Positions 16,645 to 36,259 of a stretch of 57,397 nt of DNA are shown in pieces. Every line of letters begins with the position of its first letter. The first letter of the stretch is position 1. The stretch lies in assembly GCF_001280005.1 (NCBI RefSeq), contig NZ_LGDW01000404.1, positions 1-57,397 on the forward strand. The letters are read 5' to 3'. The stretch comes from Streptomyces sp. NRRL WC-3618 (GTDB lineage: Bacteria; Actinomycetota; Actinomycetes; Streptomycetales; Streptomycetaceae). The translations under genes were made by a program, and so were the position numbers. The notes under the pieces are model-generated. The model searched no databases, had not been told where the DNA came from, and saw only the letters and a list, made by a program, of their open reading frames with translations.

Positions 16645-18510
16645 TCACTGCTCCAGTACGTTCGCGAAGAAGCCCACGTGAGGATCCTCGGGGGTACCGA
16701 CGAGCAGCGCGCGGTCCAACAGGATGTTGTTGTGCTCGCAGCTCGTCTCCGGGAGCATCACGCAGGCGTGACAGGCTGCGAGGTTGGTGCCGCCGGTGCC
16801 CGACGCCTCGGACTCGACGCAGAGCGGGTCTGAGGAGCACCACTCGGCGCGGTGGACGGCTGAACGGATCGCCCGGTCGAGGCGGTCCGGTTCGCCTTGC
16901 GCGACGAGCCCGCCGAGGCTGCCCGCAGAGTCGCTCGTCGCTGTGTAGATGAGCACCCCCGCCATGTCGTCGGCGGCGTACAGACGCTCGCGCAGGGAGG
17001 CAGCCGGGTAGCCCGCGTCCAGGCTCCACTCGTTGATGAGGACGTGGGCCAGGGTGTGCAGCAGCACCATGCGGGGGGTGGCCGGGGAAGGGACGACACG
17101 GCTCGGGTCTCCGGCCCGCTGTTCCAGCACCCGTTGGTGAGCGGTGCGCATCCGCTCGACCCGTGCGGCGACCGCTGTGGCCTTCTCCCAGGTGCTCAGT
17201 CTGTCCTCGTCCAGGCGGAGGAAGACCCCCTCGCCGCGCACCTCCATGGCCGGGAGCCAGCGCAGAGGAGAGCCAGACAGGGGCATCTCCTTCGATTCGG
17301 TCGTGGAGTCGGGGTCGGCGAGCCGGGTGAACGCCTTCAGGGCGCGTACCTCGCGGAGCTTCTTGACCAGCATCGGCCCGGTGACGCCGAGCAGACCGAG
17401 CATGCTCTGGTCGCCCAGCGGGGTCTCGCAGACGAACTGCTCCTCGTGGGAGTGCTCTCCCTCGTCGTTGCCGGATCGGAGACGCTCGTACTCCTTGTTG
17501 CGGAGAGCGAGGTATCGATGGTCGAAGGTGGGGCCCGCCTTGCCGTCGGGGTCCTCCTCGCGCTCGGCGTCGAGCAGTTCCATCACCTCGTCCAGCGGTA
17601 CGGGGCACTTGCCCTTGAAAACACCCTGGAGATAGATCTCGACGTGCTCGCGCCTGTCGTACTCGCGGAGGGTGTCCCAGTGCTCGGCCAGCGGGTCTGC
17701 GCGGCCGTCGCTCCACGGCGGGATGGAGAGCGCCGACTTCATTACCGGCTGCCACACCGCCGAGGAACCTCGCTGAAGCGTGCGCAGAGGGAGGCCGCAC
17801 TCCTGGGCGGGGGCGGACGTTCCGAGCCACGGGCGGGGGCCGAAGCACTTGAGGCCCAGGTCCTTGAGCGCGTTCCTGCGGAACGAGCCCTCCATCGAGA
17901 CCTCGGGAGCCTTTCCACAGGTGCAGGAGATGAGGATAGAGCGGAGCGACGCCGTACGCCCGGACGTGCGCAGTCTGAGCTTTCCCCCGCACTGTCCGGT
18001 CGTCGAGGCACCGCGGTCCGTGGAACGGTGTACCCACTGCCAGTACGGGAACTCGCCGAGGTGCCCGGCTTCGCATGCGACGACGAAGCGGGAAGGGACG
18101 AGGTCGACCTCACACGCTCCGCAGACACTTCGACCGGTCGGCGGGTTGAAGTCGCGGTGTCGCTGCAGTTCGTTGCACTCGGGGCAGGAGTGCATCAAGG
18201 GGAAGCGTCGGACCCTGAGGCCATCCCTGCTGTTGTCGTCGGACGCGGGCGGCAGCCGGAAGTAGTCGATGTCGAGCAGGCGGGCCAAGCGCCGTTCGTA
18301 GATCCGAGGTGCCTCGTGGACGCTCCAGCTCTGGTCGGCCTCGTCAAGGCCGGAGACAACGAAGGACTCGGCGTCGACGGCGATGAGCGAACCGATGCCG
18401 TACGTGGTGATCGCCTGGGCGCGGCGGACCGCACCACGCCGCGGGAGGTTGTGGGCGGGTGCGGAACCTGTCGCGCCGGTCCGGCGACGGCGGGCGGGGG
18501 GCGGGGTCAT
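16645..18510 (-). CDS. drmB: DrmB-like DUF1998 protein (DISARM component)
   Basis: 621 aa. The N-terminus has RRAQAITTYGIGSLIAVDAE, a segment typical of DrmB. It is followed by cysteine pairs likely to bind zinc (CPECNELQRH...CGAC; SCTCGK; CGGKLRLR). The C-terminal DUF1998 region (about 475-610) has VLLHTLAHVLINEWSLDAGY, VLIYTATSDSAGSLGGLV, then DPLCVES and ACHACVMLPETSCEHNNILL. DrmB partners with the DrmA helicase in DISARM, where DrmAB recognises unmethylated incoming DNA. Its ATG overlaps the drmA stop by 4 bp, giving the usual drmA-drmB order. It is the last gene of the leftward operon. No phospholipase-D (DrmC) gene follows. Confidence 0.87.
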   Translation of the reverse strand: MTPPPARRRRTGATGSAPAHNLPRRGAVRRAQAITTYGIGSLIAVDAESFVVSGLDEADQSWSVHEAPRIYERRLARLLDIDYFRLPPASDDNSRDGLRVRRFPLMHSCPECNELQRHRDFNPPTGRSVCGACEVDLVPSRFVVACEAGHLGEFPYWQWVHRSTDRGASTTGQCGGKLRLRTSGRTASLRSILISCTCGKAPEVSMEGSFRRNALKDLGLKCFGPRPWLGTSAPAQECGLPLRTLQRGSSAVWQPVMKSALSIPPWSDGRADPLAEHWDTLREYDRREHVEIYLQGVFKGKCPVPLDEVMELLDAEREEDPDGKAGPTFDHRYLALRNKEYERLRSGNDEGEHSHEEQFVCETPLGDQSMLGLLGVTGPMLVKKLREVRALKAFTRLADPDSTTESKEMPLSGSPLRWLPAMEVRGEGVFLRLDEDRLSTWEKATAVAARVERMRTAHQRVLEQRAGDPSRVVPSPATPRMVLLHTLAHVLINEWSLDAGYPAASLRERLYAADDMAGVLIYTATSDSAGSLGGLVAQGEPDRLDRAIRSAVHRAEWCSSDPLCVESEASGTGGTNLAACHACVMLPETSCEHNNILLDRALLVGTPEDPHVGFFANVLEQ

Positions 18511-21500
18511 CGGGTTCCCTCCATGAACAGGGCGGACTCGGCGTCGACGTCACGCAGGCTCCACAGAGTGGCCCACGCCTCGGCGTCCTCGGACTCGTCG
18601 TCGTACGCCTTCAGGAGAGAGGGAGCGCGACTGCCCCTGCGGGGCTCGAAGACGAGGCCGCCGTCGATGTCGGCCTCCTCGCACCACCACTCGACGAACT
18701 CGTCGAAAGCATGGGACGCGGCCTCGACCTCCTCCGGGGAGACTGCTTCCACGCGCTCCAGGAGCACGGACCTGATACGGCCCCGGAGAACGTGTTCGTA
18801 GGATTCGACCCGGCCCGCGCCCTCGTTGGGGCGGGCGGCCGGGATCAGGGTGCGGGCGAGAGCGACGATCACCGCGTGCAGACCCCGGTCGCGGGAGCGG
18901 GCGGAGAACGGCGTCACGGAGGTGGACTCGACCTCCCGGTAGAGGGCCGAGTGGAAGTGCTGGAAGCTCTCGTAGTGGGAACGGTCCCGAGATCGGGTCG
19001 AGTTGAGCATGACCGTGACCAGGCCGGGGTGCGCACGGCCGACACGGCTGGTCGCCTGGATGTACTCGGCGGTCGTCTGCGGCTGGCCCATCACGGCCAT
19101 GAGACCGAGGCGGTCCACGTCCACACCCACCGCGATCATGTTGGTGGCCAGGAGGACGTCCACCGCGTCCTCGTCGGGGAGCCTCTTCTCGATGCCCTTG
19201 AGGCGGGTAGGGATCTCGCTGGCGTCGACACGGCTGGTCAGCTCCGAGTAGTTGGCGACCGAGCGGACCGCCACCCCTTCGCGCTCGGCGAGCAGCTCCA
19301 GATAGGCCACCACGTCGTCGTGGACCTGAAGTTCGGCCGCAGAGAGCAGCCGGAGGCTGTTGAAGTAGCCGACGAGACTCCAGTACGCGTCGCGCACCTC
19401 GTCGGCGGTCTTCGCGTGCTTGGCCCGGTGCAGCAGGGTGGCGTACGTGCGGATCAGCAGGGTGGACTGGCTGGTGCCGGGCGCCAGCAGGCCGACGTAG
19501 CGCCGGCTAGCCTTCTCCTCGCGCGGGGTCTCCACGGCGAACCACGAGTCGCGGGCGTCCAGGCCCGCAGGCGGGAACTGGCGAACGCCGCGTGCGAAGA
19601 GGTGGCGTCCCTGGTCGGCGGCGCGACGGATTGTCGCTGTGGAGGCGATCACCTTTGGGCGACCCGCGAGTGCGTCGACAGCGGTCTCGTACAAGCCGGT
19701 CAGGGTGCCCAACGGGCCGGAGATCAGGTGCAGTTCATCCTGAATGATCAGTTGTGGGGGAGGAGTGGCATCCTCCAGGTCGTCGAGGTTGAAGAGTGCC
19801 GAGGTCGCCGGACGCCACGGCATCGACGCGAACTTGTCGACGGTGGCGATCACCAGTGTCGGCCGTGCGTCGTACACCGCCTCGTCGATCAGGTGAACGG
19901 GCAGACCGTCGGCGAACTCGCAGTTCGTGCCGGGGCAGCGGACATGCATCCGCCTGGCGTTCTCGTCGGCCTCGTAGTTCCGGGCGTCGAGGCGGGTCCC
20001 GCACCAGGGGCAGGTGTGCAACTGGACGGGATTCTCGGTGGCCAGGCGTTTGTCGAGACTCCTGCGCAGCTCATCCAGCTTCTGCCCGGCCACGGCCAGC
20101 GTGTTGGGAGTGGCCGAACGCCCCACCCACATGCCGATGGAGAACTCCTCGTGTCCCAACTCGGGCGTGTGGCGCCGCATGTGTTCCATGGCGCAGAGCA
20201 AGATCGCGGCGCGCTCGAACTGCTGGAGGGTGAGCAGCCGCAACGTGTAGCGCATGAGGACGGTGACCCCACCTCCGTCCGCACCCTTGCGGAGGCGACG
20301 CAGGAACGACGTGAGGGCGATGAGTCCGAGGTAGGCCTCGGTCTTGCCACCACCAGTGGGGAACCACAGCAGATCGGAGACCTCACGGTCGCGATGGTCG
20401 GGGTCGTCGATGCCGGCCAGGCAGAGCAGTACGAAAGCGATCTGGAAAGGGCGCCAGCTACCGGCGGCCGGGTCGGGGGCGCCGACGCGTCCGCTCTTCA
20501 CCCAGGCGCTGCGGGCGCGCTGTTCGGCCATGGCACGGTTGGCGAGCCGGAACGCCGTCATCAGGTCGGGCTTGGTCCGCAGCAGCTCGATGCCCTCGCG
20601 GATCCGGTCGAGCGCCTCACGACAGGCCTCCACCTGGTCCCGCGCGGGCTTCTCGTGGCTGTCGCCGGTCAAGGCCTGCGCTTCCGTCGCCTTGCGGTCG
20701 ATCCAACCCTCGTACCCTGCGGCGAGATCCTCCAGAGCGGCCAGGACCTCGGTGTCGGACTTCTCCGCCAGCCCCAGCATGGACAGCGCCGAGCTGTCGA
20801 TCTCCGGATTGGAGTCGGTGAGCAGTACCTCCACGGTGGGCACGAACTCGCTCCGTACCTCGGCGACGGCGGCTGTTCGGGTGTCGGTCATGCCGACCGG
20901 CGGCGGCATCCAGTCCCATTCGGCGGCGCAGCCGTGGCCGACAGCGAAGGTCGGGGCATGGCGATGCAGCAGCCTGCTGGTGGCGACCTCCGCGTCATGG
21001 GCGAAGATCGGCGCGGGGCGCTCGACGAACGCGGTGGAGCCGTCGACCGCGCGGACGGTGAGACCGCACTGGAACAGGGAGAACGCGTCCTGGAGTTCGC
21101 GCTCGCCGACCTGGTGGGTGTTGACGAGTGTGACGGTGATCGTGACTGTGCCGGTGGTCGGGTGGGGACGTCGGACGTTGACGCGCAGCAGAGCCCCCGC
21201 GCCGAGGTCGAACTTCTTGTCAGGGTCGGGTGTGGTCACGTCGACCGGGGTGTCCGGAAGGACGAGTTCCCTGCGTCGCCACCGCTCCCGTTGCTCTGAG
21301 GTCGTGCGGGCCTCGGCACGGCGGGCCGGGATCGGTTTGCCCTCCGGATCGGTGGGCTCGTAGACGGCGGCACGCGCCGAAACCACGATCGAGTCGCTTA
21401 TGGCCGGGGCGACCGCGAAGGTGAGGCCCATGGACGAGGGGCGGCGGGAGCCCGCGGCGCCTACTTCCTGCGCGGTACCGGACTCCTCGGCGCTGTCATC

Positions 21501-21761
21501 CGTGCGCAGCGGGGCGACGTCCAGACCTTCGTACTCTGCCTCGTCCTCACGGATCCGCTCTTCCGCGGTCGGGTCGACCGATCGCGGGTAGAGGACGCCG
21601 GTCAGGTAGCGGTCGATCGGCGCGTCCTCGGCAAGGACTTCGTCCCGGTCCTCCGGCGCGGCGCCCGGAGCGGGACCGAGAAGCTCGCGGCGGAGTCCTA
21701 CCAGCAGTTCCTCGTCCCGGACCCGGTAGTGCTCGGAGTGCCGACCTGCCACCTGTGTCAT
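18507..21761 (-). CDS. drmA: DrmA-like SF2 helicase (DISARM component)
   Basis: 1084 aa; start MTQVAGRHSEHYRVRDEELL overlaps the upstream helicase stop by 4 bp. The N-terminal half (about 1-440) is accessory sequence. Helicase motifs: Walker A LLWFPTGGGKTEAYLGL near residue 470, a DrmA-style motif II LIIQDELHLISG near 674 (QDELH rather than DEAD), motif III VIASTATIRRA, and motif VI QATSRVGRAHPG near 905. Between I and II is a Cys cluster (CPWCG...CPGTNCEF) suggestive of zinc. The C-terminus includes VTPFSARSRDRGLHAV. Family knowledge: DrmA is the DNA translocase of DISARM and works with DrmB. Full length for the family. Confidence 0.9.
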   Translation of the reverse strand: MTQVAGRHSEHYRVRDEELLVGLRRELLGPAPGAAPEDRDEVLAEDAPIDRYLTGVLYPRSVDPTAEERIREDEAEYEGLDVAPLRTDDSAEESGTAQEVGAAGSRRPSSMGLTFAVAPAISDSIVVSARAAVYEPTDPEGKPIPARRAEARTTSEQRERWRRRELVLPDTPVDVTTPDPDKKFDLGAGALLRVNVRRPHPTTGTVTITVTLVNTHQVGERELQDAFSLFQCGLTVRAVDGSTAFVERPAPIFAHDAEVATSRLLHRHAPTFAVGHGCAAEWDWMPPPVGMTDTRTAAVAEVRSEFVPTVEVLLTDSNPEIDSSALSMLGLAEKSDTEVLAALEDLAAGYEGWIDRKATEAQALTGDSHEKPARDQVEACREALDRIREGIELLRTKPDLMTAFRLANRAMAEQRARSAWVKSGRVGAPDPAAGSWRPFQIAFVLLCLAGIDDPDHRDREVSDLLWFPTGGGKTEAYLGLIALTSFLRRLRKGADGGGVTVLMRYTLRLLTLQQFERAAILLCAMEHMRRHTPELGHEEFSIGMWVGRSATPNTLAVAGQKLDELRRSLDKRLATENPVQLHTCPWCGTRLDARNYEADENARRMHVRCPGTNCEFADGLPVHLIDEAVYDARPTLVIATVDKFASMPWRPATSALFNLDDLEDATPPPQLIIQDELHLISGPLGTLTGLYETAVDALAGRPKVIASTATIRRAADQGRHLFARGVRQFPPAGLDARDSWFAVETPREEKASRRYVGLLAPGTSQSTLLIRTYATLLHRAKHAKTADEVRDAYWSLVGYFNSLRLLSAAELQVHDDVVAYLELLAEREGVAVRSVANYSELTSRVDASEIPTRLKGIEKRLPDEDAVDVLLATNMIAVGVDVDRLGLMAVMGQPQTTAEYIQATSRVGRAHPGLVTVMLNSTRSRDRSHYESFQHFHSALYREVESTSVTPFSARSRDRGLHAVIVALARTLIPAARPNEGAGRVESYEHVLRGRIRSVLLERVEAVSPEEVEAASHAFDEFVEWWCEEADIDGGLVFEPRRGSRAPSLLKAYDDESEDAEAWATLWSLRDVDAESALFMEGTR

Positions 21762-23659
21762 GCGCGCTGCTCCTCCTCGTCGGCCCGTCGATACCTTCCG
21801 ATGCCGGTGATCCGGGGGACGATCCACGCCCCACGGTCGCCGAGACCGGCGTTGGCGCCGGCGGCGGCGCTGCCCGTCACCGTCTCCAGAGTGTCGACCC
21901 GTATGCCGTGGATCTCATCGGGCCACCAGGGATCCCACGTCCTGTTCACCTTCTGCACCTGGAATAGCTCCTCCCGGAACCGCTCCGACGCCTCACCGAT
22001 CTCCCGGCCGTCATGTACCAGAGCGTACGGCGGGCTCTGGTACTCACTCATCGGCAGATCGTGGCGCTTGCGCAGCACGACGTCCTGCCCGGGGCCGACC
22101 TGCGCCAAGAGGTATGCCTGGGTCGCCACGGCGTCGCTCTCTTGGCCGGGCGGGTTGTCCCGGCAGACGTCCCCCGCCTCGGCGACGACGCCGTATCTGT
22201 CGTACGACCGCCATCCGCCGACATAGCGGCGGCCGTTCTTTCGGCCGCCCGCTCTCTTGAGGATCGGCAACTCGGGTGACTGCGCGTGGTAAAGGTCCTC
22301 GCGGGCGCGAGTCATCGCCACGTACAGGGTTCGGGCCTCGGCAGGGAGGTCCAAGTCGTCCTTGTACTGCTTGCGCAGTTCGGCGACGGTCGGCGGGGTC
22401 AGGACGATCACCCGGTCGAACTCGAGGCCCTTGGCCCGATGCACGGTGGAGACGACGAGACGCGCGGTCTCCGGGTCGGCGGCCTCGTCGGGGAACCTGC
22501 CGTCGGCGACCGAGCGGCGCAGCCGCTCCAGATCGAGCACACCCCGGCCGGCCGAGCGCGCGGCCCGCCGCAGTACCGTCCACAGGCCGGTCACGTTCGG
22601 CTCGTACGGCAGTGGGATCTCCGCGAGCAGCGAGCGGAACCGGTCCTCGGTGAGGCCGGTGGCCTCGGTGCGGCGCAACAACTCGGCCACCCAGTACGGC
22701 ACCGGCCGCTCTTCGAGGGAGCGCCGCAGACGATGCTCGACGCCGTGCTCGTGGAGGAGGCCGGATACCACCAGGGCCTGTCGGTTGTCGCGGGCGAGGA
22801 TCGCACAGGTGTCGGGAAAGGTTCGCAACCCGTCCAAGGTGAATGGATCGGTGAGGTCACCCAAGCTGTTCGCCGGATCCAGTAGCAGTTCGCGTAGTTC
22901 GTCGTAGCGAGTCGCTGCCTCGTCCGAGTCGGTGACCTGCTGGAGTCGGGGGCCGTGCGCCAACGCGATCCGGGCCTCAGGGGTGACCGCTCGGAAGTTC
23001 CGGGTGAGGCGCAGTTCCACGAGGTCGTCGGGGTACGAGAAGCGCAGCCAGTCGAAGAACCGCCCGGTTTCGTCGGCGCGTTCGGTCAGGTCCTCGATCT
23101 GGAACCCGTAGACGGACTGGGCGGCGTCGCCGACGACGGTAAAGCCACAACTGTCCTGGTACCGGTCGAGCAGCGTCTCCACCAGCTCTCGGCGCCCGCC
23201 CACCAGATCCTGTACCTCGTCGATCACGACATGAGCGGGCGGGACGGAATCGCCGGCCTCCAGCGCTCCCTCCTCGACCGCCCGGGTCGCGGCGTCGATC
23301 CGCTCGTCGAAGCCGACTGCACCCCACTCGCCGTCCGGGTGCGACTGAAGGAGCACCCCGTACGCCCAGGCGTCGAAGGTCTGGGCACGCACCCGGTGGG
23401 CTCGCTCCCCATGCCGGGCGATGCGCTCGCGCAACTCGCGGGCGGCGGCCCGGGAGAAGGTGAGTACTAGGATCTCGGCGGCCTCCAACGCCTCGTCGGG
23501 GTCCTCGTGACCGCTCAGGGCGTCGAGTCGGCGCACCAACGTGTGCGTCTTTCCCGCCCCGGCGCCTGCGGTGACCAGGACACGCGCGTCCCAGGGCTGC
23601 TCGACCACGGCCCGCTGCTCATCGGTGAGCGGCGGGCTGTCGAGGTAGGCGTCGGTCAC
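21758..23659 (-). CDS. UvrD/PcrA-type SF1A helicase in the DISARM-like operon
   Basis: 633 aa. SF1A motifs in order: Q-motif-like LTDEQRAVVEQPWDARVLV, Walker A TAGAGAGKTHTL (about residue 35), VLTFSRAAARELRERI, motif II VVIDEVQDL, motif III GDAAQSVYGF, motif V STVHRAKGLEFDRVIVL, and motif VI TLYVAMTRAREDLYHA. The 1B/2B insertions are short compared with 720-aa UvrD/PcrA, and no nuclease domain is seen. The C-terminal about 100 residues (KRAGGRKNGRRYVGGW, VVLRKRHDLPMSEYQSPPYA) are an unrecognised extension. UvrD-like helicases occur in defence systems such as Gabija, but the DISARM core normally lacks one. It overlaps both neighbours by 4 bp, so it is an integral part of this operon. Confidence 0.88.
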   Translation of the reverse strand: MTDAYLDSPPLTDEQRAVVEQPWDARVLVTAGAGAGKTHTLVRRLDALSGHEDPDEALEAAEILVLTFSRAAARELRERIARHGERAHRVRAQTFDAWAYGVLLQSHPDGEWGAVGFDERIDAATRAVEEGALEAGDSVPPAHVVIDEVQDLVGGRRELVETLLDRYQDSCGFTVVGDAAQSVYGFQIEDLTERADETGRFFDWLRFSYPDDLVELRLTRNFRAVTPEARIALAHGPRLQQVTDSDEAATRYDELRELLLDPANSLGDLTDPFTLDGLRTFPDTCAILARDNRQALVVSGLLHEHGVEHRLRRSLEERPVPYWVAELLRRTEATGLTEDRFRSLLAEIPLPYEPNVTGLWTVLRRAARSAGRGVLDLERLRRSVADGRFPDEAADPETARLVVSTVHRAKGLEFDRVIVLTPPTVAELRKQYKDDLDLPAEARTLYVAMTRAREDLYHAQSPELPILKRAGGRKNGRRYVGGWRSYDRYGVVAEAGDVCRDNPPGQESDAVATQAYLLAQVGPGQDVVLRKRHDLPMSEYQSPPYALVHDGREIGEASERFREELFQVQKVNRTWDPWWPDEIHGIRVDTLETVTGSAAAGANAGLGDRGAWIVPRITGIGRYRRADEEEQRA

Positions 23660-26600
23660 TTTCTGCTCCAGAGATGTTCGAACTGGGTGAAGGCGAGTCG
23701 GGTGTCGAAGTTCGCGATGTTGTCACTGACGTTGAGGATCAGGCAGGTGGGTTCGCCGCCGTTGAGCGGACCGCGCAGACCACGACCGATCATCTGCTGG
23801 TAGACGTTGGTGCTGTAGACGGGCCGGGCCACGACCACGGCACGGGTGGCCGGAGCGTCGAATCCCTGGGCGAGCACGCCGTAGTTGGTGAGCACCCGGA
23901 TACGTCCGTCGCGGAACTTCTCGATGCGCGTACGACGGTCCTGCGCGCTGGTAGTCGCGTCCACGGCGGCGGACCGGATCCCCCGGTCGTTGAGCATGGC
24001 CGCCAGGTACTTGGCATGGTCGACGGAGGTGGCGAAGAGCAGCGTCGGCCAGTCGTCGGGCAGATCGGCAACCGAGTCGACGATGCGCCTGCTGCGCGCG
24101 TGGTCGTCGGCGAGCCGCTGCTCGGCGGCACGGGAAAGCATCGACATCCGCTCGGCCTGAACCTTCTCGTCACGGGTCAGTTCAATCCGGCCGCCTTCCA
24201 GGGTGCGGTGCTCCACCTGCGCGAGCATCCCCCACTCCTGGAGATCCCGGTACGGATCACCGGAGGGGAAGACACCCTCGTCGAGCCGCCGGTTCCCGAA
24301 GCGCCCGACCAGACGGCGGGTCTCCTCCTCGTTGGTGTTGCGGAAGGGCGTGGCGGTCAGGCCGAGCAGGTGCCGACCGGTCTCGTACTGGGTGAGTCCC
24401 AACCGGCTCAGGATCTCGGTGTACCGCTTGGAGATGGCGGTGTGGGCCTCGTCCACGATCACCAGCGCGGCTTGACGCAGCCACGTGTACGGTTCGGTGT
24501 CCAGGCAGCGCTCCAGCTTGGCGTCGGTGGCGACCACCAGGTGGGGGTGGTCGACGACGTTCCCGACCTCGTTGCCGCTCCAGAGCCGGCTGATGGTCAA
24601 CGGGCGTTCCGCACCGACCTTGCTCCACACGAACTTCCAGCTCTGGACTGCCTGTTCGCACAGTTCCTCGGTCTGCGCGATCCACAGCAGCGGCCCGCTC
24701 AGGTCGCCGACGCGCTTGACCCAGCGAATCACGGCCTCGGCGGTGACCCGGGTCTTGCCCGCGCCGGTCGGCAGCGACAGCATGCCGCGCTGGGGAGCGA
24801 GGCGGTCGAGCATGGTGGTGATGTTGCGGACCAGATCCTCCTGGTACTCGTGGAGGCTTGGGAAGTCCCGAGGGCCCTCGACGGTCTCGAACGGCGGTGG
24901 GGTCGGGGTCCGCGAACCCGCGAAGGACACCGGGAGTTTCAGGTCCGAGACGAAGGCGACGGCGGACGAGGAGCCGCTGTAGGAGACGGGAGCGTCAGGG
25001 AACCGTGCCTGAATGTCGCGAGCGTGCTGATGGAGGACACCGTCACCGTGGGCGTTGAAGGCCATCTGCGCGATTCGCCGCCCCGACGGCTGGATGCCGT
25101 CTGCCGCCTGCAGTTCCGCCTCCATCAGTCCTTCAGGGAGGCCGACCCGCAGTGCTTCCGCCCCGATCAGCAGCTCGATCTTGGTGACCACGTCCTCCGT
25201 CTCACGCACGGCTTTCCGGGCCGCCTGCATCGCACTGTCCCGAGCCATCCGGTCCTGATGTTCGAGCACGGCCCGGCAGCCGGACGCGCCGAGGCCCAAC
25301 CCGAGTTCGCGGTCGATCAGGCAGAGCATCGGCTCGGGATCCAGCGGAACGCGGATCTTGACGGTGCCGTCCTGGCGGACGGCGTCCAGCGGAGAGGCTT
25401 GTGTGCCGTTGGGTGTGCGGGTGACCTCCTCCAGCTCGGTGCACCTCTGCACCAGGCTGTTCCGGTTGGAGCTGTTGAGGTGTCGGCGCAGGCCGGGATA
25501 CAGCTCCACCAGTGGCACCGGATCACCCTCGACCACCTCACGGGTCTCCCGGCTGATCATGTCTGCGAAGCGGAGCATGCCCCACTTCTCGACCATCAGC
25601 TCGGCGTCCCCGACGGTCGACACGAGCAGCGCTGGGAGCTGCTCGGCGCGGAGCGCCCGATACTCGGCGGCCCCGACGGCGAGCGTGATCTCGTCGTCGG
25701 GACGGGTTCCCCAGGTATCGCCGATCCGGCAGCGGGTGAGGGAGTCCTCGGGGAAGTCCGCGCCGAACCGGGTCAGCATCACGTAGGTCGCGCCGACGAA
25801 GGAGTCGTCCTCACTACGGGACACCTCGTCGAGGAGTGCCTCCCAGCGGTCTGCCGGAACATCGTCGACCGTGGACGGAAGTCGCAGCTTGCGGGCCTTC
25901 TCGGCCGACAGGTCGGCGACCGGCAATACGTCGCGGTAGGCGGCGAGCTGGGGGCCAACGGCTTCCTTCAGCGGTTTGATTCCCTGGGAGGTGGCGACCG
26001 TGCCGTACTTCCGCAACATCCAGCGGATCGGTGAGATCACAGCTTGTCGAGTGCTGCTCTGCGCGCCGATCTGACGTGTCCAGTTGTCGACCACGGCATC
26101 GTCGGGAAGTGCCTTCAGGAAGGCGGCACGGGACTCGTCGGAGAGTGCGCGGAACAGGTGGAGCGGGCCCCCGATGGCGGCTCCCTCGACCTTCATCCGG
26201 TTCAGGGAAGGGCGAGGCGCGTGGCTGTCCAACCTGCGCAGATAGTCGGAGTGGACGACCTCCCGATACTCCTCGAACCAAGCCTCTCCTTCTGTCGGCC
26301 GCACTCCCGTGGTGGGCCGTTCCCGCAGTCCGACCTGGGCGAAGAAAGCGACGTCGTCGGAGTGGAACGTCATGTCGACGGCGACGCTCGGGTCACGTCG
26401 CGCGTCGACGACTCTGCCCGGAAGCATGCAGTCCTCGATGGGCCGGAACCTTTCGTCGGCGGTTCGCACACACAGCGTCGAGCCGGGGGTGGCCACCCGC
26501 TCCAGAACCTTGAGTGCCAACCGACCGATTCCGGCCCGACGGAACAGCTCCCAGAACCGCTGCCAATCGGTGTCCCCGTAGCCGTCGAAGCCTTGGTCGA

Positions 26601-28416: not shown

Positions 28417-28461
28417 TGGTCCTGCACTCCTGAGGTGTCAAAGATCGGGTGAAGGTGTGTG

Positions 28462-28496
28462 ATGGGCCGGCTGTCGACTTCGTGCAGCCGGCCCAT
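28462..28496 (-). terminator. hairpin between the small leader gene and the giant helicase gene
   Basis: Perfect 12-bp inverted repeat, arm ATGGGCCGGCTG at 28462-28473 and its complement at 28485-28496, 11-nt loop. In the leftward direction it follows the small acidic gene and precedes the GTG of the giant helicase by 46 bp. It could terminate or attenuate transcription into the defence operon. Confidence 0.6.
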
Positions 28497-28608
28497 GGGT
28501 GTTCGAGTGGTGTCAGAAGGGTGCGCAAAATCTCTGCCTTCACGCGTTTATGCTGGTGAAGGCGGTCAGGAGTGTGGCCCGAGAGGTCTCCGCCTGCGCG
28601 GGGTCAGG

Positions 28609-28827: not shown

Positions 28828-28909
28828 GGCAGGTCCCCTGTCGCATCGGTCGCACAGGGGTGCATAAAGGCATATTGACCCCTCGTGGGAAATGAGTCCA
28901 AGTATCTCG

Positions 28910-28924
28910 GGTAAACGTTTTACC
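28910..28924. promoter_or_regulatory. palindrome in the AT-richer divergent control region
   Basis: GGTAAA-CGT-TTTACC (28910-28924), perfect 6-bp arms, about 85 bp before the small acidic gene. Between it and that gene, on the minus strand, is a weak TTGGAC-N18-CAATAT promoter-like pair. This may be an operator for the leftward operon. The 28828-29274 stretch holds no convincing gene and is clearly more AT-rich than its flanks. It also contains the palindrome CAGAATTCTG at 29039-29048. Confidence 0.4.
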
Positions 28925-29274
28925 GAAAATCCTAGCAGGCCGAAAGGCGGTCTGACTAGTTGTTAGGTTTGGCTGAGGGGGCGCTTGTGTGGATCTGGTC
29001 CAATCCAGTGAATTCTGCCCCTCGGTGCTGATTTTGGACAGAATTCTGACAGGCTGCCCGGTTCTCTCGACTTGCGTTCGAGTTCGTGAGCAGGGTGAAA
29101 CATTCACCGTCACTAATCATATTGGATGCCGATCGGGTGTCAACCCCAACTGCCCCTCGCTGGTGGGGAATCGAGCGCTCCGAATGTGGGATTCGGTCCA
29201 AAAGGACACAAAAACGGGCAATTCAATCCACTGGTCTTAAGTGATCCTGGCATCTGGGCCCGATCAACTGTTGG

Positions 29275-29336
29275 TTGACAGTGCTCCCCGCGTCAAATTA
29301 ACCTCCTGGTCAGTCGCCTGCGAGCCGCAGGCGACT
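29275..29336 (+). promoter_or_regulatory. promoter and 10-bp-arm hairpin ahead of the XRE-GHKL gene
   Basis: TTGACA at 29275-29280 followed after 16-17 bp by ATTAAC/TTAACC (29297-29303). The predicted transcription start falls next to a perfect inverted repeat: arm AGTCGCCTGC at 29312-29321, 5-nt loop, complementary arm 29327-29336. This can act as operator DNA or as a 5' mRNA hairpin. It also argues that the coding start is downstream of it. Confidence 0.5.
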
Positions 29337-29360
29337 CCGAGGGGAAGAGCAGGTAGCGCG

Positions 29361-31514
29361 TTGGACGCAGGTGAGGAGTTCGGGCCCTGGTTGGCCCGTC
29401 AACTCAAGCTCTCGGGGAAGACGCAGGCCGAACTTGCCCAGGAGCTCAAGCTGACTCGGGCCGCCATCTCCGCGTGGATCACCGGCAGGTCGACCCCCCG
29501 CCCGACCGTCATGACGGAGATCGCCAGGGCGCTCGGCACGGACGTCGGCACGGTGCACACCCGTACCACCGACACCCAGGCCGGTCTGCCGACCACCTGG
29601 TACCACCGTCCCGGCTATCCCGACGGGGGCCGTGACCTGGGCAACGCTGGGGCCTTCGCGTTCGACGCCGACGTCCAGGTGCTCGCCCGAGAGACCTGCC
29701 AGAACAGCCTCGACGAACGCCGCATCGAAAGCGGCCGACCTGTCAGGGTCCGCTACACCCTGCACGAGCTGACCGGAGAGGCGCTCGACGCCTTCCGCGA
29801 GGCGATCCTCTGGAACGACCTCTTCCCCCACTACTCCGCCGTCTCGGAGAGCGCGGGAAGCCAGAAGGTCGGCCGGGTCGTGGACGCCGGAGTGCGCGAC
29901 ATGTACGAGAAGGGCCGCCTGGTCCTGTTGAGAGTCGACGACTACAACGCGTCAGGGCTCATTGGTGACGACTACGCGGACGGCAAGTTCGCCGCCGTGG
30001 TCAGGCGGCAACTGGAGAGCCTCAAGTCGGGTCACGGCGCGGGTGGTTCGTACGGCCTGGGCAAGGCGACCCTGTGGGCCACGAGCGCCCTGGGGCTCGT
30101 GCTCATCAACTCCACTCTGTCCGTGCCCCACGAGGGGCGTACGGAGCGACGGGTCATCGGACGTCTCGAACTGCCCTGGCGCGAGGTCGATGGCGAGCCG
30201 TACGCGGGCCCCGCCTGGTTCGGGCGTCCCGATCCCGACTCTCCCGGCGCGAGGGTCGCCCGTTCCTGGTGGGCGGACGAGGAGACCGTCGCGCGTCTGC
30301 ATCTCGCCAGGGAGGGCGACGAACCCGGTACCTCCTTCCTCATCGTCGGCGCGCACGACGTGGCCAGCCTGGAGGAAGGCGGGGCCGATGTCGACGACGA
30401 GACCATGGACGAGGAGGGAGCCAGGGACACTCGCGACATTCGCAGAATGCACCAGCGTCTGGTCGAGGCGCTGGGACGCGACTTCTGGGCCGCGATGACT
30501 GGTGGGGGCAACAGGCTCCCCCTCCTGGAAGTCTCCGTCCGTGCCCTTCGCAACGGCAAAGTGGTCGTGCCGGAGAAGCAGGTCGACCCGTCCGCCGAGC
30601 AGCCCGCCCGGACCCGTGCCTTGAAGGCGCACTACGAAGGCATCACCGTGGATCGGCTCCTTGAGGCCGGCCAGGTGGCAGCGCGAAGTGTTCCGCTGAA
30701 GTTGCCTCTGTCCGGAGGAGCCCGGGGGACCCTCGGGACACACCAAGCGGTCCTGTTGGTCACTGACCTGACCACTGACGCCGAGGGTGAGGACGGAGCG
30801 AAGAATCAGGTGCATTCGCTACGAGGCAACCGCATGACCGTCAAGACGGCCGGAGTCCCGAACCTGCCGCTCGGCACGAATCCGTTCCAGGCGGTTCTCC
30901 TGGTGGGCGAGGCCGCCGGGGAATCGGCCCCCTTCGCGAAGGACGCCGAGGAATTCCTGCGTGCGGCGGAACCACCCGAGCACGACCGCTGGGGGCAGAC
31001 CGAGGAGCTGAGCCTGCGCTGGTCGCCTTCCGCGTACCGGCGGATCAACATGTTGACCACAGAGGTCAACAGTGCGGTGAGAGAACTCGTCGCGCGGCCG
31101 AAGCGCGGCAGCCGTGAAGGCGGTGAGGCTCTGCGCAAGGCGTTGACCGTGAAGACGAGGCCCAAGGCCAAGGCGCCTTCCGGGCCGGTGGTTCCGGTCC
31201 TGGACGTGCTCGACGCGACGGTCGGCGATGACGGGGAGTGGCGGATCACCGGGGAGGTGAGCATCCCGCGCGGTGACGAGATCGTCCCGATGGTGCCGGT
31301 CGCCCAGCTCGACGTGCGCTCGGGTGGCCGCCCGAAGCTGGACTGGGCGGAGCTGGTGGCTGTCGAGGGCTGCGAGGTGGAAGACGGGATCCTGCGTTTC
31401 CCGCCCGGCACTCGTCGCGCGACGTTCCGAGGATCCACCGATGTCACCAGCCACCCGGTCAGGACCACGCTCACCCGCCTCGTGCTCGAACTCCGCGCCG
31501 GCAAGGGGGAGTGA
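29361..31514 (+). CDS. XRE-HTH fused to a GHKL-type ATPase-like domain
   Basis: 717 aa if read from the TTG at 29361. An in-frame GTG at 29241 is possible but lies before the predicted promoter. An XRE helix-turn-helix covers residues about 8-65 (LKLSGKTQAELAQELKLTRA, AISAWITGRSTPRPTVM). A GHKL-like ATPase core follows: VLARETCQNSLDERR (N box; E and N as in Hsp90/MORC), LLRVDDYNASGL (G1) and GGSYGLGKATLWATS (G2). About 450 C-terminal residues are unassigned. It opens a rightward operon divergent from the DISARM-like operon. Together with the giant protein it makes two GHKL-type ATPases back to back. The HTH probably autoregulates the control region (inference). Confidence 0.75.
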   Translation: MDAGEEFGPWLARQLKLSGKTQAELAQELKLTRAAISAWITGRSTPRPTVMTEIARALGTDVGTVHTRTTDTQAGLPTTWYHRPGYPDGGRDLGNAGAFAFDADVQVLARETCQNSLDERRIESGRPVRVRYTLHELTGEALDAFREAILWNDLFPHYSAVSESAGSQKVGRVVDAGVRDMYEKGRLVLLRVDDYNASGLIGDDYADGKFAAVVRRQLESLKSGHGAGGSYGLGKATLWATSALGLVLINSTLSVPHEGRTERRVIGRLELPWREVDGEPYAGPAWFGRPDPDSPGARVARSWWADEETVARLHLAREGDEPGTSFLIVGAHDVASLEEGGADVDDETMDEEGARDTRDIRRMHQRLVEALGRDFWAAMTGGGNRLPLLEVSVRALRNGKVVVPEKQVDPSAEQPARTRALKAHYEGITVDRLLEAGQVAARSVPLKLPLSGGARGTLGTHQAVLLVTDLTTDAEGEDGAKNQVHSLRGNRMTVKTAGVPNLPLGTNPFQAVLLVGEAAGESAPFAKDAEEFLRAAEPPEHDRWGQTEELSLRWSPSAYRRINMLTTEVNSAVRELVARPKRGSREGGEALRKALTVKTRPKAKAPSGPVVPVLDVLDATVGDDGEWRITGEVSIPRGDEIVPMVPVAQLDVRSGGRPKLDWAELVAVEGCEVEDGILRFPPGTRRATFRGSTDVTSHPVRTTLTRLVLELRAGKGE

Positions 31515-31517
31515 CGC

Positions 31518-32513
31518 GTGAAGATCTACCCGTACAAGCGGCTCAACCGGCCGGTCACTCTCAGAGCGACCTCCGTTTCCCTCAGACTCTCGGACGGTAC
31601 GCGCGACCAACTGGAGACCACCGCGTACTCGACCCAACAGCAGGCGGTCGCACTCGGCATCGCGGGTCGCAGCGACTGGGTGAGCGCCACGATCGGCCTC
31701 TCGGTGACGCTGCCGCCCGGGGCGAACGCGCCGGACGCGGCCTGGTCCGACCTGCGCGTCCTCGCCGTTCTGACAGACGGCGAGACCAATGTCCGCACCT
31801 CTGTGGCCCTCACACGTGACGCGGAGGACGGCCATGACTGGTCAGGCTCCCTGGAGGTGCTCCGTGACGATCACTTGGGTCGGGCCTCCCTCGCCGTCTA
31901 CGCCGTCGGGACGGTGGACGGAATACACGGACGGTCGATCGCGGAGACCGATCGGAGCTGGATCGTCGACACGGTCTCCGACGATCCTGTCCGTGGGCTC
32001 CAACTGGACGTCCAGAAAGCCTCGTTCAGGAAGAGTTCCCGGGTGCGGTTGCATGCCTATGCGGACGCGCCCTGGATCGTGGACGCCTCAGCGAGAGTGC
32101 CTACCGTGTTCGTGAACACGGATGTCGAGGGGGTCATCGGGTTGTTGGACAGCCGCGGCTCCGGCGTGGACAGCAAGGTGCGTGACCTCCTGGTCGCCCA
32201 GATGGCCACCGACGTCTGGACCGCGGTGTTCCATGGCGCAATCGGTGACCTGGAGGTGGGACCCGGCGGCAGTCCGGTCTTCCCGACCGACTGGCAGGGC
32301 GAGGTGTTGCGGGAGATGCTCCCGGACGTGATTCCCGGCGTACAGGTCGAGGAGGCCCTACGACAGGTCCATCGCCGCCGTACCGGAGACTCGGGCTGGG
32401 TGGAACTGCAGACCCGCATCCACTACGCGGCGGTCCGTCGTGCGGATGCCACCAAGGCGCTCGCCTACGCCATCCGCAGCGTGGAACAGATGAACCGAGA
32501 GAGTGAGACGTGA
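31518..32513 (+). CDS. unknown protein of the XRE-GHKL operon
   Basis: 331 aa, GTG start 3 bp after the previous stop (MKIYPYKRLNRPVTL). The N-terminal about 170 residues are rich in alternating hydrophobic strands (ATSVSLRLSDGT, VSATIGLSVTLPPG, LRVLAVLTDGETNV, ASLAVYAVGTVDG), suggesting a beta-sandwich. The C-terminal half is helical (VRDLLVAQMATDVWTAVFHG, EGEVLREMLPD-like QGEVLREMLPDVIPGVQVEE, ADATKALAYAIRSVEQMN). No catalytic signature was found. I do not recognise a family. Tight spacing and a 4-bp overlap with the next gene make it an obligate partner of the GHKL ATPase. Confidence 0.75.
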   Translation: MKIYPYKRLNRPVTLRATSVSLRLSDGTRDQLETTAYSTQQQAVALGIAGRSDWVSATIGLSVTLPPGANAPDAAWSDLRVLAVLTDGETNVRTSVALTRDAEDGHDWSGSLEVLRDDHLGRASLAVYAVGTVDGIHGRSIAETDRSWIVDTVSDDPVRGLQLDVQKASFRKSSRVRLHAYADAPWIVDASARVPTVFVNTDVEGVIGLLDSRGSGVDSKVRDLLVAQMATDVWTAVFHGAIGDLEVGPGGSPVFPTDWQGEVLREMLPDVIPGVQVEEALRQVHRRRTGDSGWVELQTRIHYAAVRRADATKALAYAIRSVEQMNRESET

Positions 32514-33388
32514 TCACCCCACCGAACCACGTACCGGAGCGCCTGGCGCTGCTCGACACCTCGGCTGTCGACCCGTTCCTCACCGAGGAACTGCTCAAGG
32601 GTGAGCATGTGCATGGCGGCATAGATCTCGCCAAGGTGGTCGACTCGCTGCCCGAGGACGACGCCAGGTGGTCGGTCGAGCCGATCCGGAGCCTGGTGGA
32701 GGACGCCATGTTCGAGTTCCGGGCAGACCGTACCCGAGCCGACGCGTGGCTCGCGCCACGGCTCCATGCCACGCTGCGCCTGACGCGGCGAGAGGCTGCG
32801 GACAAGCGTTTGTGGAACCACATCGCTCTGGCGGTGGCTCCCGACTACGTGGTCTGGCGCCACCTTTCGGAGCCGACGGCGAGCAAGCCGGGAAGGCGTG
32901 TAGCCGCGGAGCGCTTCCGGGGTCCTGCGGACCGGCAGTGTTTCTCGCGCCTGTGGTGGGCAGCTGAGCTGTTCAGGAACGGGGCGGACTACGAGCCGGT
33001 CACGACAGCCTGCGGAAACCAGGACCTCATTCACAGCGTTCTGAGGAAGGAGCTGATCGACCACCGCCCCACCGCTCAGGCTTTGGTCGGCTTGCTGAAG
33101 AGGGGGTTGGTCACCACCGGGCGAGAGATCGATGGCCTCAGCGTCGCGATCAATGCGGCTGGTGCAACCCTTGTCTACGACGTTCTCGCGCCGGACGCGC
33201 CTCGGAATTCGGCCGGTCTGCGAAGGTGGATCGAGGAGGCTGGATCGGCGGCGCCGGTGAGTCGGCGCGAACTCCCGGAGGGGCCCGACGAGGAGCCGGT
33301 TCCTGAGGAATCCGTGGCCGCGCTCACCGAGTACTTCGCGGAAATGTTCGACACCGCGCCGGTCAGGGGACGGAAGAACGCAGATTGA
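32510..33388 (+). CDS. DUF6339-like protein
   Basis: 292 aa, GTG start overlapping the previous gene by 4 bp. Mainly helical: FLTEELLKGEHVHGGIDLAK, WLAPRLHATLRLTRREAADK, RLWNHIALAVAPDYVVWRHL, RQCFSRLWWAAELFRNGADY. The RLWNHIAL...YVVWRH and FSRLWWAAELFRNG segments resemble DUF6339, a family often annotated near bacterial cytosine methyltransferases and defence helicases. No enzymatic motif is apparent. It is the last gene of the rightward operon and ends 5 bp before a 21-bp-arm terminator. The family name is from memory and should be treated as tentative. Confidence 0.65.
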   Translation: MITPPNHVPERLALLDTSAVDPFLTEELLKGEHVHGGIDLAKVVDSLPEDDARWSVEPIRSLVEDAMFEFRADRTRADAWLAPRLHATLRLTRREAADKRLWNHIALAVAPDYVVWRHLSEPTASKPGRRVAAERFRGPADRQCFSRLWWAAELFRNGADYEPVTTACGNQDLIHSVLRKELIDHRPTAQALVGLLKRGLVTTGREIDGLSVAINAAGATLVYDVLAPDAPRNSAGLRRWIEEAGSAAPVSRRELPEGPDEEPVPEESVAALTEYFAEMFDTAPVRGRKNAD

Positions 33389-33392
33389 ACAG

Positions 33393-33437
33393 ACGGGGAG
33401 CACGTCCGCGAAGGATCTTCGCGGACGTGCTCCCCGT
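33393..33437. terminator. bidirectional terminator between convergent defence operons
   Basis: Near-ideal hairpin: 21-bp perfect arms (33393-33413 and 33417-33437) around the 3-nt loop GAT. It sits between the stop of the DUF6339-like gene and the stop of the methyltransferase gene (33439), so it can end transcription from both sides. Confidence 0.9.
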
Positions 33438-33438
33438 A

Positions 33439-34821
33439 CTACTCCGATGTCTTCGAGTTGTTCTTGTTGCTCTTGCTTGGGCGCGCGGCGGAGGGTGGCG
33501 GCGCCTGATCCTCGGGTCGTGGGCACATGTCCGTGCAGGCATCAGCGGCCCCACAGCCTTGACTTCGCAGCTTCGCCCGCTGTTCCTCCGTGGCTGGCTG
33601 CCACGGCTCCCTCAACGCATCCGGATCCAGCTGGGGGAGCCCGAGTGCGGTGCTCAGCAGGTGTGCCCCGAACAGAGGCGGCACGGCGTTGCCCACCTGC
33701 TGGGACTGTGCCTTACCGGACCACGGATAGTCCGGCGGGAAGCTCTGCAGCATCCCCGCCTCGTTCATGCTGAACCGCGCGCCCTCGTAGACGATGTTCG
33801 CGTCGAGGTGTTGGAAGACCACGAAGCGGGAGATGCGGCCGGTGACGGTGAATGCGGGCTGTCGATCGCTCCGCACCCCGCGCCTCCCTGGGATTCCGGA
33901 GCTGCCGTAGTTCGAGCGGACCAGGAAAGGAGTGGCGCGTCCCGGATGTGTACCCACCGGGTCGGCAAGCACGTCACCCATCGACCTCCAGGGTCGCAGG
34001 CCCTTGTCACCGGTTTCCCCGTGTTCTTCGGTTCCTGGTGCCGTGCCCTCGTCGAGGGTCGGCTGATGAGCCTGGCCTGTTGCGGCTTGGTCGTCCTCGT
34101 TCCTACGGTTCCATTCCTTCGCGTTGTAGGAACGGTGGGTCCGCACGGGAAGTGAAGGCGCATCGAGCCCTTCACGACGAGCGATCAATACCGCGCGGGA
34201 TCGCTTCTGAGGCACGCCGTAGGTCTCGGTGTCGAGGAGGCCGACAACGACCTTGTACTTGGTGCCGTCCGGAAGGCCCGCCCCCTGTAGCACCTTGGCG
34301 TAGTGGTGCCAGAGTTCTTCGACCGCGGGGACCTGTTCCAGGACGATGACGTCGTACGGGCGCTTCTCCCGGTTCGGGCTCCTGGTTGCCTGAATGGCGT
34401 ATCGGAGGGGCTCGAGGACCAGCGCGGTGCGCGGATCGCTGAGAGTCTTCAGATCCTCGTCGATCGTCTCGTCGGATTCGCCCGCCGCCAGTCGCGCGAT
34501 GTACTCCTTGACCTTGTTCAAGTTTTTGCGCCCAGCGCCGTGCCCAGCCACCGAGTAGGTTTGGCAAGGAGGTCCGCCGGCCAGCACGTTGATCTCCGGT
34601 GGCAGCGACTCGAAGGCATCTCTACGTACCGCGCTCACATCGGCGTGAAGGGTGTCCAGCCCAGCCGCGTATCGCGTCAGACAGGCGCTCTTGTCCCACT
34701 CGATGCCGAGACTCGGGATGTCGAGAGCGTGCCCCGCGACGTCCAGCCCTCCGGGCCCCGCGAAGAGATCCAGGACAAAGGGATTGTCGAGGATGGACTG
34801 GTGTGGCGCCGCGCTGGTCAT
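33439..34821 (-). CDS. DNA (cytosine-5) methyltransferase, catalytic PCQ present, ENV replaced by EQV
   Basis: 460 aa from MTSAAPHQSILDNPFVLDLF. C5-MTase motifs: I DLFAGPGGLDVAG (about 18-30), IV AGGPPCQTYSVAGHGAGRK with the nucleophile Cys86, VI region VIVLEQVPAVEELW where canonical ENV reads EQV (162-164), and VIII QKRSRAVLIARR. Motifs IX/X are RQPAFTVTGRISRF and QQVGNAVPPLFGAHLL. The Lys/Asn/Ser-rich tail (SKSNKNNSKTSE) is unusual. It would methylate cytosine at C5, giving self-marking for the DISARM-like island, as DrmMII does in class 2 DISARM. The Asn-to-Gln change in motif VI could weaken activity alone. It follows the second MTase by 11 bp. Confidence 0.88.
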   Translation of the reverse strand: MTSAAPHQSILDNPFVLDLFAGPGGLDVAGHALDIPSLGIEWDKSACLTRYAAGLDTLHADVSAVRRDAFESLPPEINVLAGGPPCQTYSVAGHGAGRKNLNKVKEYIARLAAGESDETIDEDLKTLSDPRTALVLEPLRYAIQATRSPNREKRPYDVIVLEQVPAVEELWHHYAKVLQGAGLPDGTKYKVVVGLLDTETYGVPQKRSRAVLIARREGLDAPSLPVRTHRSYNAKEWNRRNEDDQAATGQAHQPTLDEGTAPGTEEHGETGDKGLRPWRSMGDVLADPVGTHPGRATPFLVRSNYGSSGIPGRRGVRSDRQPAFTVTGRISRFVVFQHLDANIVYEGARFSMNEAGMLQSFPPDYPWSGKAQSQQVGNAVPPLFGAHLLSTALGLPQLDPDALREPWQPATEEQRAKLRSQGCGAADACTDMCPRPEDQAPPPSAARPSKSNKNNSKTSE

Positions 34822-34832
34822 GTGGCGGAATT

Positions 34833-35828
34833 CTAGCCGGCCGCGGAGGTTGCTGGATCCCGGTTCAACGCTTCGGCGACGGCTCGCCCCAGAGCTTCTC
34901 CCACGGGCGGCGGTGTCGCGTGCCCGATTTGGCGATATCGGGCGGTCTTGAGCCCCGCGATCTGCCACGATTCGGGGAAACCCTGCAACAGCGCGGCCTG
35001 CTCAGCCGTGATCTTCACCATGTTGTCCCTGCCGAGCTTGGGATCCCATATGAAGTCCGGACCGGGGACCAGGTCGCCCACCGTGTGCGCGTTGACGCCC
35101 ATTGTCGCCCACTTCCGTTTGGCTCCGGTCGGTCCCAGATCGGCGCCCCCTCGGTTCTTCGAGCCACCGACCAGTGTCGGAGCCGGTTGATCGGCTTGGG
35201 CGGCCCAGAGGGCAGCCTCCTGCCATCCCCGTGAGGCCATGGACGACCCCAGAGCGGCACCGACCGTTGTCGGCTCGAGCACGGTGGGTGCCGGCGGTCG
35301 GAACGCGTCGGCTCGCGGCTGTTCGACCGCCACAAGGACGCCCTGCTTACGGTTCTGCGGTACGCCGAAGTCGACGGCGTTGGTGACGAACCAGCTGAAC
35401 TCGTAACCCAGGTGCGCCAGTTCGGCCCGGGCGAAATCACGGAACTGCCGGTGCTTGTCCGAGTCGGCGAGCCCAGGGACGTTCTCGATGAGCACCGCCC
35501 GAGGCTTGATCGCATGGACGAGATAGACGGTGGCCTCCAACAGCCGCTCCTCCATCCCCGAATCCGTCCGTCCGACGGTCGCATTCGACTTCACCCGTGG
35601 CAGACCCGCCGCGAGTAGATCCACGTCGTAGCTCACGGGGTGCTCGGACGGGTCGAAGTCCAACAGATCGGCGCACAGCACGTTCCACTGTGGCCGGTTG
35701 GTCTTCAGGGTCCTGACGGCTACCTCGTCGTCGTCCAGCAGCAGGCGCGGTTCGAATCCCGCCCGCTCCAGGCCGAGGGCCAGGCCACCCGCTCCGGAAC
35801 ACACATCCACGAAGGTCAGTCCCCCCAC
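34833..35828 (-). CDS. C5-methyltransferase homologue lacking the catalytic PCQ motif
   Basis: 331 aa. Motif I is intact (VDVCSGAGGLALGLERAGF). At motif IV, where PCQ is expected, the sequence is LLAAGLPRVKSNATVGRTDS (Pro77-Arg78-Val79), so the nucleophilic cysteine is absent. Motif VI is canonical (AVLIENVPGLAD, 115-117). Motif VIII reads VPQNRKQGVLVAVE, and motif X is IGHATPPPVGEALGRAV. The target-recognition region holds QPAPTLVGGSKNRGGADLG and KITAEQAALLQGFPESWQI. It is probably not an active methyltransferase alone; a DNA-recognition or regulatory subunit for the adjacent MTase is the best inference. It overlaps vsr by 13 bp and precedes the active-type MTase by 11 bp. Confidence 0.86.
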   Translation of the reverse strand: MGGLTFVDVCSGAGGLALGLERAGFEPRLLLDDDEVAVRTLKTNRPQWNVLCADLLDFDPSEHPVSYDVDLLAAGLPRVKSNATVGRTDSGMEERLLEATVYLVHAIKPRAVLIENVPGLADSDKHRQFRDFARAELAHLGYEFSWFVTNAVDFGVPQNRKQGVLVAVEQPRADAFRPPAPTVLEPTTVGAALGSSMASRGWQEAALWAAQADQPAPTLVGGSKNRGGADLGPTGAKRKWATMGVNAHTVGDLVPGPDFIWDPKLGRDNMVKITAEQAALLQGFPESWQIAGLKTARYRQIGHATPPPVGEALGRAVAEALNRDPATSAAG

Positions 35829-36259
35829 GCTTCACGCCCCTTCGTTCCTTCTGCAAGACGTCGCTGCACAGTTGAAGCCACTCGCACGGCCACTTCCTCA
35901 GGTGCTTCATGCTCCCAGAACCGCAACACCATCCACCCCTCCGCGGTCAGATGCTCCGTCGTCTCCCGATCGCGGGCCATGTTCCGGTCCAGCTTGTTGC
36001 GCCACCATTCAGCGTTGGCCTTCGGCTGCGTCGCATGTTTCGGACACCCGTGCCAGAAGCACCCGTCGATCAGGACGGCCACCTTCGCCCGGGTGAACGC
36101 CACGTCGATCCGGCGTCGAGGCATGCCCGGCACCGGGTACTCCACGCGATAGCGCAGGCCCGCCGCGTACAGCAGGCGCCGCACGGCCAGTTCGGCGCTC
36201 GTGTCCTTGCTGGCTTGTCGGGACATGCGCGCGGAGACGCCGGGAGAAGAGGGCCTCAC
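35816..36259 (-). CDS. vsr: very short patch repair endonuclease (Vsr)
   Basis: 147 aa. The family block is clear: SRQASKDTSAELAVRRLLYA, AGLRYRVEYPVPGMPRRRID, VAFTRAKVAVLIDGCFWHGC, WRNKLDRNMARDRET and GWMVLRFWEHE. Vsr nicks 5' of the T in T:G mismatches produced by deamination of 5-methylcytosine, protecting the methylation sites. The GTG at 36259 has a GGGGA upstream; MSRQASK at 36226 is an alternative start. It is the first gene of the leftward vsr-MTase-MTase operon, overlapping the pseudo-MTase by 13 bp. Its presence supports that C5 methylation really occurs in this strain. Confidence 0.93.
   Translation of the reverse strand: MRPSSPGVSARMSRQASKDTSAELAVRRLLYAAGLRYRVEYPVPGMPRRRIDVAFTRAKVAVLIDGCFWHGCPKHATQPKANAEWWRNKLDRNMARDRETTEHLTAEGWMVLRFWEHEAPEEVAVRVASTVQRRLAEGTKGREAWGD

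Follow-up and report, generated by a model that had tools for sequence, protein, structure and literature searches.

A modular DrmA/DrmB locus in Streptomyces that looks like a methylation-linked restriction system outside canonical DISARM

Three operons lying side by side in a contig of Streptomyces sp. NRRL WC-3618 (NZ_LGDW01000404.1; "the window" denotes this whole stretch of 57,397 nucleotides) encode an apparently new, modular type of phage defence by DNA restriction that occurs in Streptomyces and its relatives (Table 1). An "arm", made up of a very large protein (the "giant"), a UvrD/GajB-like helicase, DrmA and DrmB, diverges from a "platform" consisting of an XRE-domain protein, a protein of 331 amino acids (aa) and a DUF6339 protein; the platform in turn converges on a "cassette" that specifies a Vsr-type endonuclease and two homologues of DNA cytosine-5 methyltransferases (C5-MTases), MT2 and MT1.

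Table 1. Genes and other features of the locus (window coordinates).
Feature	Position	Strand	Evidence
DrmB (DUF1998/MZB protein)	16645..18510	-	NF038324 464 bits (cut-off 240), PF09369 37 bits
DrmA helicase, short type	18507..21761	-	NF038325 (DISARM_DrmAS) 1013 bits, cut-off 950; GGGKT, DELH, QATSR
UvrD/GajB-like superfamily 1 (SF1) helicase	21758..23659	-	PF00580 86.4 bits; PADLOC GajB
Giant, 1586 aa	23656..28416	-	NF047352, PDLC03964, PF04851, PF00271
Predicted operator, RTCAA-N7-TTGAC-N12-GTCAA	29263..29296	+	pattern search
XRE-domain protein with GHKL-like motifs	29361..31514 (longest open reading frame from 29241)	+	HTH_3 8e-11, PDC-M33A 3.6e-21
331-aa protein	31518..32513	+	model: Ig-like beta sandwich + helices
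DUF6339 protein	32510..33388	+	PF19866 45.6 bits (cut-off 23.2), PDC-M33C 2.6e-8; model: all helical
20-bp hairpin between convergent operons	33394..33436		terminator without T tract
MT1, C5-MTase, catalytic PCQ	33439..34821	-	PF00145
MT2, C5-MTase homologue without catalytic Cys (GLPRVKS)	34833..35828	-	PF00145 142 bits
Vsr-type endonuclease	35816..36259	-	TIGR00632 114.2 bits, cut-off 97.85

The original prediction, made from the sequence of the window, had placed DrmA and DrmB beside a UvrD-type helicase and a giant ATPase/superfamily 2 (SF2) helicase, all coupled by 4-bp overlaps, and profile matches bear out these identities. The arm is read in the order giant, UvrD/GajB-like helicase, DrmA, DrmB, and its three overlaps (GTGA, ATGA and ATGA) exist provided that DrmA begins at ATG 21761, a start that we infer from the overlap itself (the longest DrmA reading frame begins at 21827). 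The giant combines a sacsin-type ATPase head (residues ~9-510; NF047352, 69.2 bits, cut-off 50) with a RadD-like SF2 helicase tail (~1187-1567), and its closest homologues carry Streptomyces names. For the XRE protein, conservation places the start closer to 29361 (TTG) than to 29241. The operon of Vsr, MT2 and MT1 runs towards the platform and ends at the hairpin, as had been proposed; it contains two C5-MTase genes instead of one, however, and a scan for T runs found none at the supposed shared terminator.

Do these genes belong together? Across 391 genomes from the order to which the window's strain belongs, the DrmA of the window's type is listed in 51 (the window included; 49 of them in its own genus), and the middle part of the giant, at 36% identity or more, is found in exactly the same 51; nine additional matches at 24-26% identity are distant relatives. 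The 331-aa protein accompanies this DrmA in 50 of the 51 and is found in 20 further genomes that lack it. In 49 of the 54 DrmA neighbourhoods fetched, the two divergent operons are complete and their seven genes stand in the same order, with best-segment identities of 44-91% for the arm, 46-92% for the XRE protein, 33-91% for the 331-aa protein and 45-85% for the DUF6339 protein; of the remaining five, one (L082) has the arm only, and four contain other DrmA types. MT1, MT2 and Vsr occur together in 32 of the 40 flanks extended beyond MT1, the other eight being without one or more of them. Such recurrence in the absence of DrmC is what the original prediction had put forward as the mark of a single system, and we judge that the gene set very probably is one functional unit.

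It might nevertheless be ordinary DISARM beside unrelated genes. DrmA and DrmB are bona fide. DrmC, which has been reported, in such text as was available, to be dispensable in DISARM, is described as typical of it in the accessible part of PMC12458937, and a DrmC scoring above cut-off lies within 8 kb of all 44 full-length canonical DrmA genes, compared with none of the 51 window-type genes; four genomes carry both kinds of DrmA, at separate loci. Profile searches of the whole 9.3-Mb source genome found neither DrmC (at E<=1e-8) nor DrmE (NF038316), in agreement with the earlier remark that neither is recognisable, and an HKD motif is missing from the five locus proteins checked. DrmD and DrmMI are not among the matches listed in general scans, and no search of the genome was aimed at them. 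Window-type, canonical and "type-2" DrmA (the last belonging to a different arm, see below) form three groups separated by mean identities of 34.6-38.8% (37.1% between window-type and canonical). The C5-MTases, though linked, score best in PADLOC against MTase_II (217.8 bits) and DruM (277 bits), the best DrmMII models reaching 64.5 and 83.8 bits. The co-occurrence of DrmA and DrmB with the other locus genes and the lack of DrmC and DrmE contradict ordinary DISARM, which is hardly credible as an explanation. The proposal of a separate, multi-operon system derived from DISARM is partly supported: it holds as far as unity and non-canonical character are concerned; its GHKL component fares less well.

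That component is the XRE protein, named here for its one confirmed domain because its identity as a GHKL ATPase is not confirmed by HATPase models, structures or profile comparison. An alignment shows conservation of E-x3-N-x2-D and GSYGLGK, which we take to be GHKL-like motifs, and PADLOC PDC-M33A matches residues 133-290. However, neither the protein nor five orthologues match any HATPase model even at E 10, searches against the PDB match the helix-turn-helix alone, and profile comparison finds no match to MORC or to the head of the giant (probabilities 0.1 and 1.7); this comparison is a weak test, since MORC and the giant's head, two model-confirmed HATPases, likewise fail to find each other (1.1). 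Of the divergent operon as first described, then, the gene order, the XRE domain and DUF6339 stand, and the ATPase is unconfirmed. The 331-aa protein matches no PADLOC model at E 10. It and the DUF6339 protein are strictly kept and conserved; a literature search of mostly open-access texts found no paper on DUF6339.

The platform is not confined to window-type arms: 27 of 80 loci have it without one, 18 of these with another DrmAB arm and nine with none, and MzaB/C/D-like genes accompany it in other strains. Sigma-70 regions 2-4 are fused ahead of the XRE domain in the type-2 locus that was scanned, and a type-2 locus has a sigma part that matches MzaA by score. Yet another DrmAB layout is seen in L083 (9039-12392) and L084 (10891-12456), in which the gene immediately ahead of a type-2-like DrmA-DrmB-SF1 operon encodes a sigma-70 protein (that of L083 being MzaA-like) and no platform gene was matched in the stretch.

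A sequence pattern, TTGAC-N12-GTCAA, recurs ~0-110 bases ahead of the XRE gene, as judged from the estimated start: 50 of 103 type-1 loci (those with window-type DrmA) have it there, as do 5 of the 21 loci without an arm, but none of the 26 type-2 loci (pair-shuffled controls, 0.0). Often it takes the longer form RTCAA-N7-TTGAC-N12-GTCAA, whose spacer varies and of which there are 56 occurrences, spread over 55 of 194 loci. The loci are related and hence do not represent independent events. The pattern is single in the window (29275-29296) and not in excess in the genome (six occurrences, against eight of the reversed control), so that the case for an operator rests on conserved position. Together with the XRE domain and the sigma fusion, this conserved operator suggests that the platform might be a control device only, with its XRE (or sigma-fused) protein sensing infection or DNA damage and, by way of the operator, switching on itself and the divergent arm, and thereby delaying restriction until the methyltransferase has acted, much as the C proteins of restriction-modification (R-M) systems do. 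We regard that as somewhat unlikely: a regulator would not need a strictly kept 331-aa protein and DUF6339 protein as well, the operator adjoins the XRE gene and is ~850 bases away from the giant gene, and the type-2 loci lack it.

The cassette contains what appears to be one intact and one dead methyltransferase. By the motif assignments of C5-MTases, in which Pro-Cys is catalytic, MT2 retains motif I, ENV and the motif VIII region, and GLPRVKS replaces the Pro-Cys of active enzymes. Among the 92 distinct matches that reach at least 45% identity, the position of the catalytic Cys is occupied by Arg in 90, Ser in one, His in one and Cys in none (eight weaker matches have two Arg, two Cys, two Pro and two gaps); of 120 distinct matches to MT1, 119 keep the Cys. 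MT2 should accordingly be a catalytically inactive homologue of C5-MTases, and MT1 presumably an active one. Target recognition in C5-MTases is located between motifs VIII and IX, and an alignment of MT2 with active relatives shows this stretch to be well conserved. NaeI shares its site with NgoMIV, and enzymes of both families adjoin or accompany relatives of MT2: such relatives are found in 17 plasmid records (36-43% identity), the five inspected all have Pro-Cys, and two of these directly adjoin NgoMIV-family restriction enzymes. One relative lies on Rhodococcus opacus plasmid pROB02 in a cluster of NERD protein, DrmA, DrmB, Vsr, NaeI-family enzyme, HNH and methyltransferase (L227 1-10239), which may connect a type II R-M system with the window's platform. 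NgoMIV cleaves G/CCGGC (PMC4081073, the portion available), and we predict that MT2 still reads GCCGGC; that it acts as a reader is a tentative and rather doubtful suggestion.

The interpretation that we prefer, with a probability of about 0.6, is that arm, platform and cassette are three strictly co-inherited operons of one modular methylation-linked restriction (antiphage) system, in which a DISARM-type motor would be mounted on a platform of the MZA/MORC type and restriction would be linked to 5-methylcytosine (5mC). It might work as follows: 1) MT1, possibly steered by MT2, would mark host DNA with 5mC. 2) MT2, which has the motifs for S-adenosylmethionine binding and base flipping and whose target-recognition region resembles the one in NgoMIV-type enzymes, could not methylate; it would read the same or a related site and signal when that site is unmodified. 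3) The platform, under its own operator and perhaps driven by ATP (if the GHKL-like motifs mean what they seem to), would relay the report of MT2. 4) DrmAB, UvrD and the giant would thereby be loaded on unmodified phage DNA, which would be unwound and destroyed. 5) Vsr is the sole recognisable nuclease in the locus, and host nucleases would complete the degradation.

Several observations weigh against this interpretation. In one of the 51 type-1 loci (G012/L082) the arm is without a platform in the fetched stretch. The distances of MT1, MT2 and Vsr correlate at just 0.35-0.71 with those of the arm and platform genes, which implies that the cassette is exchanged by itself. MT2 is unseen in 7 of 53 type-1 and 6 of 18 type-2 loci (some of these are contig ends), so that a role as reader could not be universal. 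Vsr may merely repair deaminated 5mC, the XRE and sigma fusions are also compatible with a purely regulatory platform, and it is, as stated, unconfirmed that the XRE protein is an ATPase. One could think instead of two or three separate defence systems (DrmAB/UvrD/giant; a PDC-M33-like set of XRE, 331-aa and DUF6339 proteins; C5-MTase/Vsr) that each work alone and share a site, perhaps also a regulator, through co-regulation or hitch-hiking. The exception of L082, the poorly correlated cassette and the platforms with other arms or none all speak for this, as does one genome, seen twice (L053/L198), that pairs an arm of 81-82% identity with a 331-aa protein of 48%. But arm and 331-aa protein are parted only once in 51 genomes and the giant is never without window-type DrmA, a tighter association than loose linkage in an island would give, and we consider separate systems unlikely. 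(In L082, a 494-aa protein without Pfam match, at 14478-15962 on the plus strand, is divergent to the giant.)

Antiphage restriction is, for its part, the likely function. A locus for DNA repair or genome maintenance with no role against phage could claim the RadD-like tail, the UvrD and Vsr homologues and, in the accessible text of PMC12458937, the repair enzymes among YprA-family proteins; patchy presence (51 of 391 genomes), exchange of modules and partners of MZA and DISARM type are typical of defence, and make a repair locus very improbable.

Beyond the arm lie an HTH_31-DUF5753 regulator (14775-15623, minus strand) and an HATPase_c_2 protein (15657-16490, plus strand). The regulator is found in 19 of 49 type-1 loci at 74-88% identity over at least 98% of its length, and because it is kept even where arm identity is merely 61-70%, the system may occupy a fixed chromosomal site. 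Also outside the locus, 7183-10878 (plus strand) encodes a protein of 1231 aa that matches PADLOC HTH_VI weakly.

What guides DISARM-type motors to their targets is a standing question: DrmAB contacts DNA without sequence preference (PMC9142583, in the text available). Since the same platform, accompanied by one active and one dead C5-methyltransferase, is found with a DISARM-like arm or with an MZA-like one, recognition and motor appear separable, and testably so, in a type of system that is common in its order. Our literature search did not find this combination of genes, with most subscription papers outside the search and absence therefore unproven; in the portions available, PMC12458937 (YprA/ARMADA) does not mention GHKL, Hsp90 or sacsin, nor does PMC8011034 (paraMORC with Vsr and C5-MTases) mention DISARM.

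Pieces of the locus are shared with several known systems. With DISARM (class 2-like DrmAS) it has in common DrmA and DrmB as separate overlapping genes and a linked 5mC methyltransferase; it differs in having a UvrD helicase and a sacsin-ATPase/SF2 giant instead of DrmC and DrmE, an extra platform, methyltransferases whose best matches are not DrmMII, and its own DrmA group. The giant's head resembles PADLOC TmtA (8e-40), which we take to be Tiamat, but the match is partial (9-510 of 1586 residues), the tail is a RadD-like helicase and the gene does not stand alone. The GajB-like helicase recalls Gabija (GajA is not among the matches listed, no search having been aimed at it). The PADLOC candidate PDC-M33 provides counterparts of the XRE protein (M33A) and the DUF6339 protein (M33C); M33B is unmatched among the locus proteins, and no model matches the 331-aa protein at E 10. 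The MZA system and the MORC/paraMORC R-M operons (Iyer 2008) likewise put C5-MTases and Vsr alongside helicases, with a GHKL ATPase next to C5-MTase and Vsr, where here it is unconfirmed that the XRE protein is of GHKL type and the sacsin-type ATPase is the head of the giant. ARMADA type II, as far as the accessible text of PMC12458937 goes, also unites a YprA-type helicase, a GajB-like helicase, a Vsr-fold nuclease and a methyltransferase in one system; that system has a single protein combining YprA helicase, DUF1998 and Vsr, along with a PglX-like methyltransferase, whereas here DrmA, DrmB and Vsr are separate genes and the methyltransferases are C5-MTases (PF00145). The CglI and NgoAVII R-M systems (PMC4267653), finally, share with the locus the pairing of a C5-MTase with ATP-driven restriction of the helicase type.
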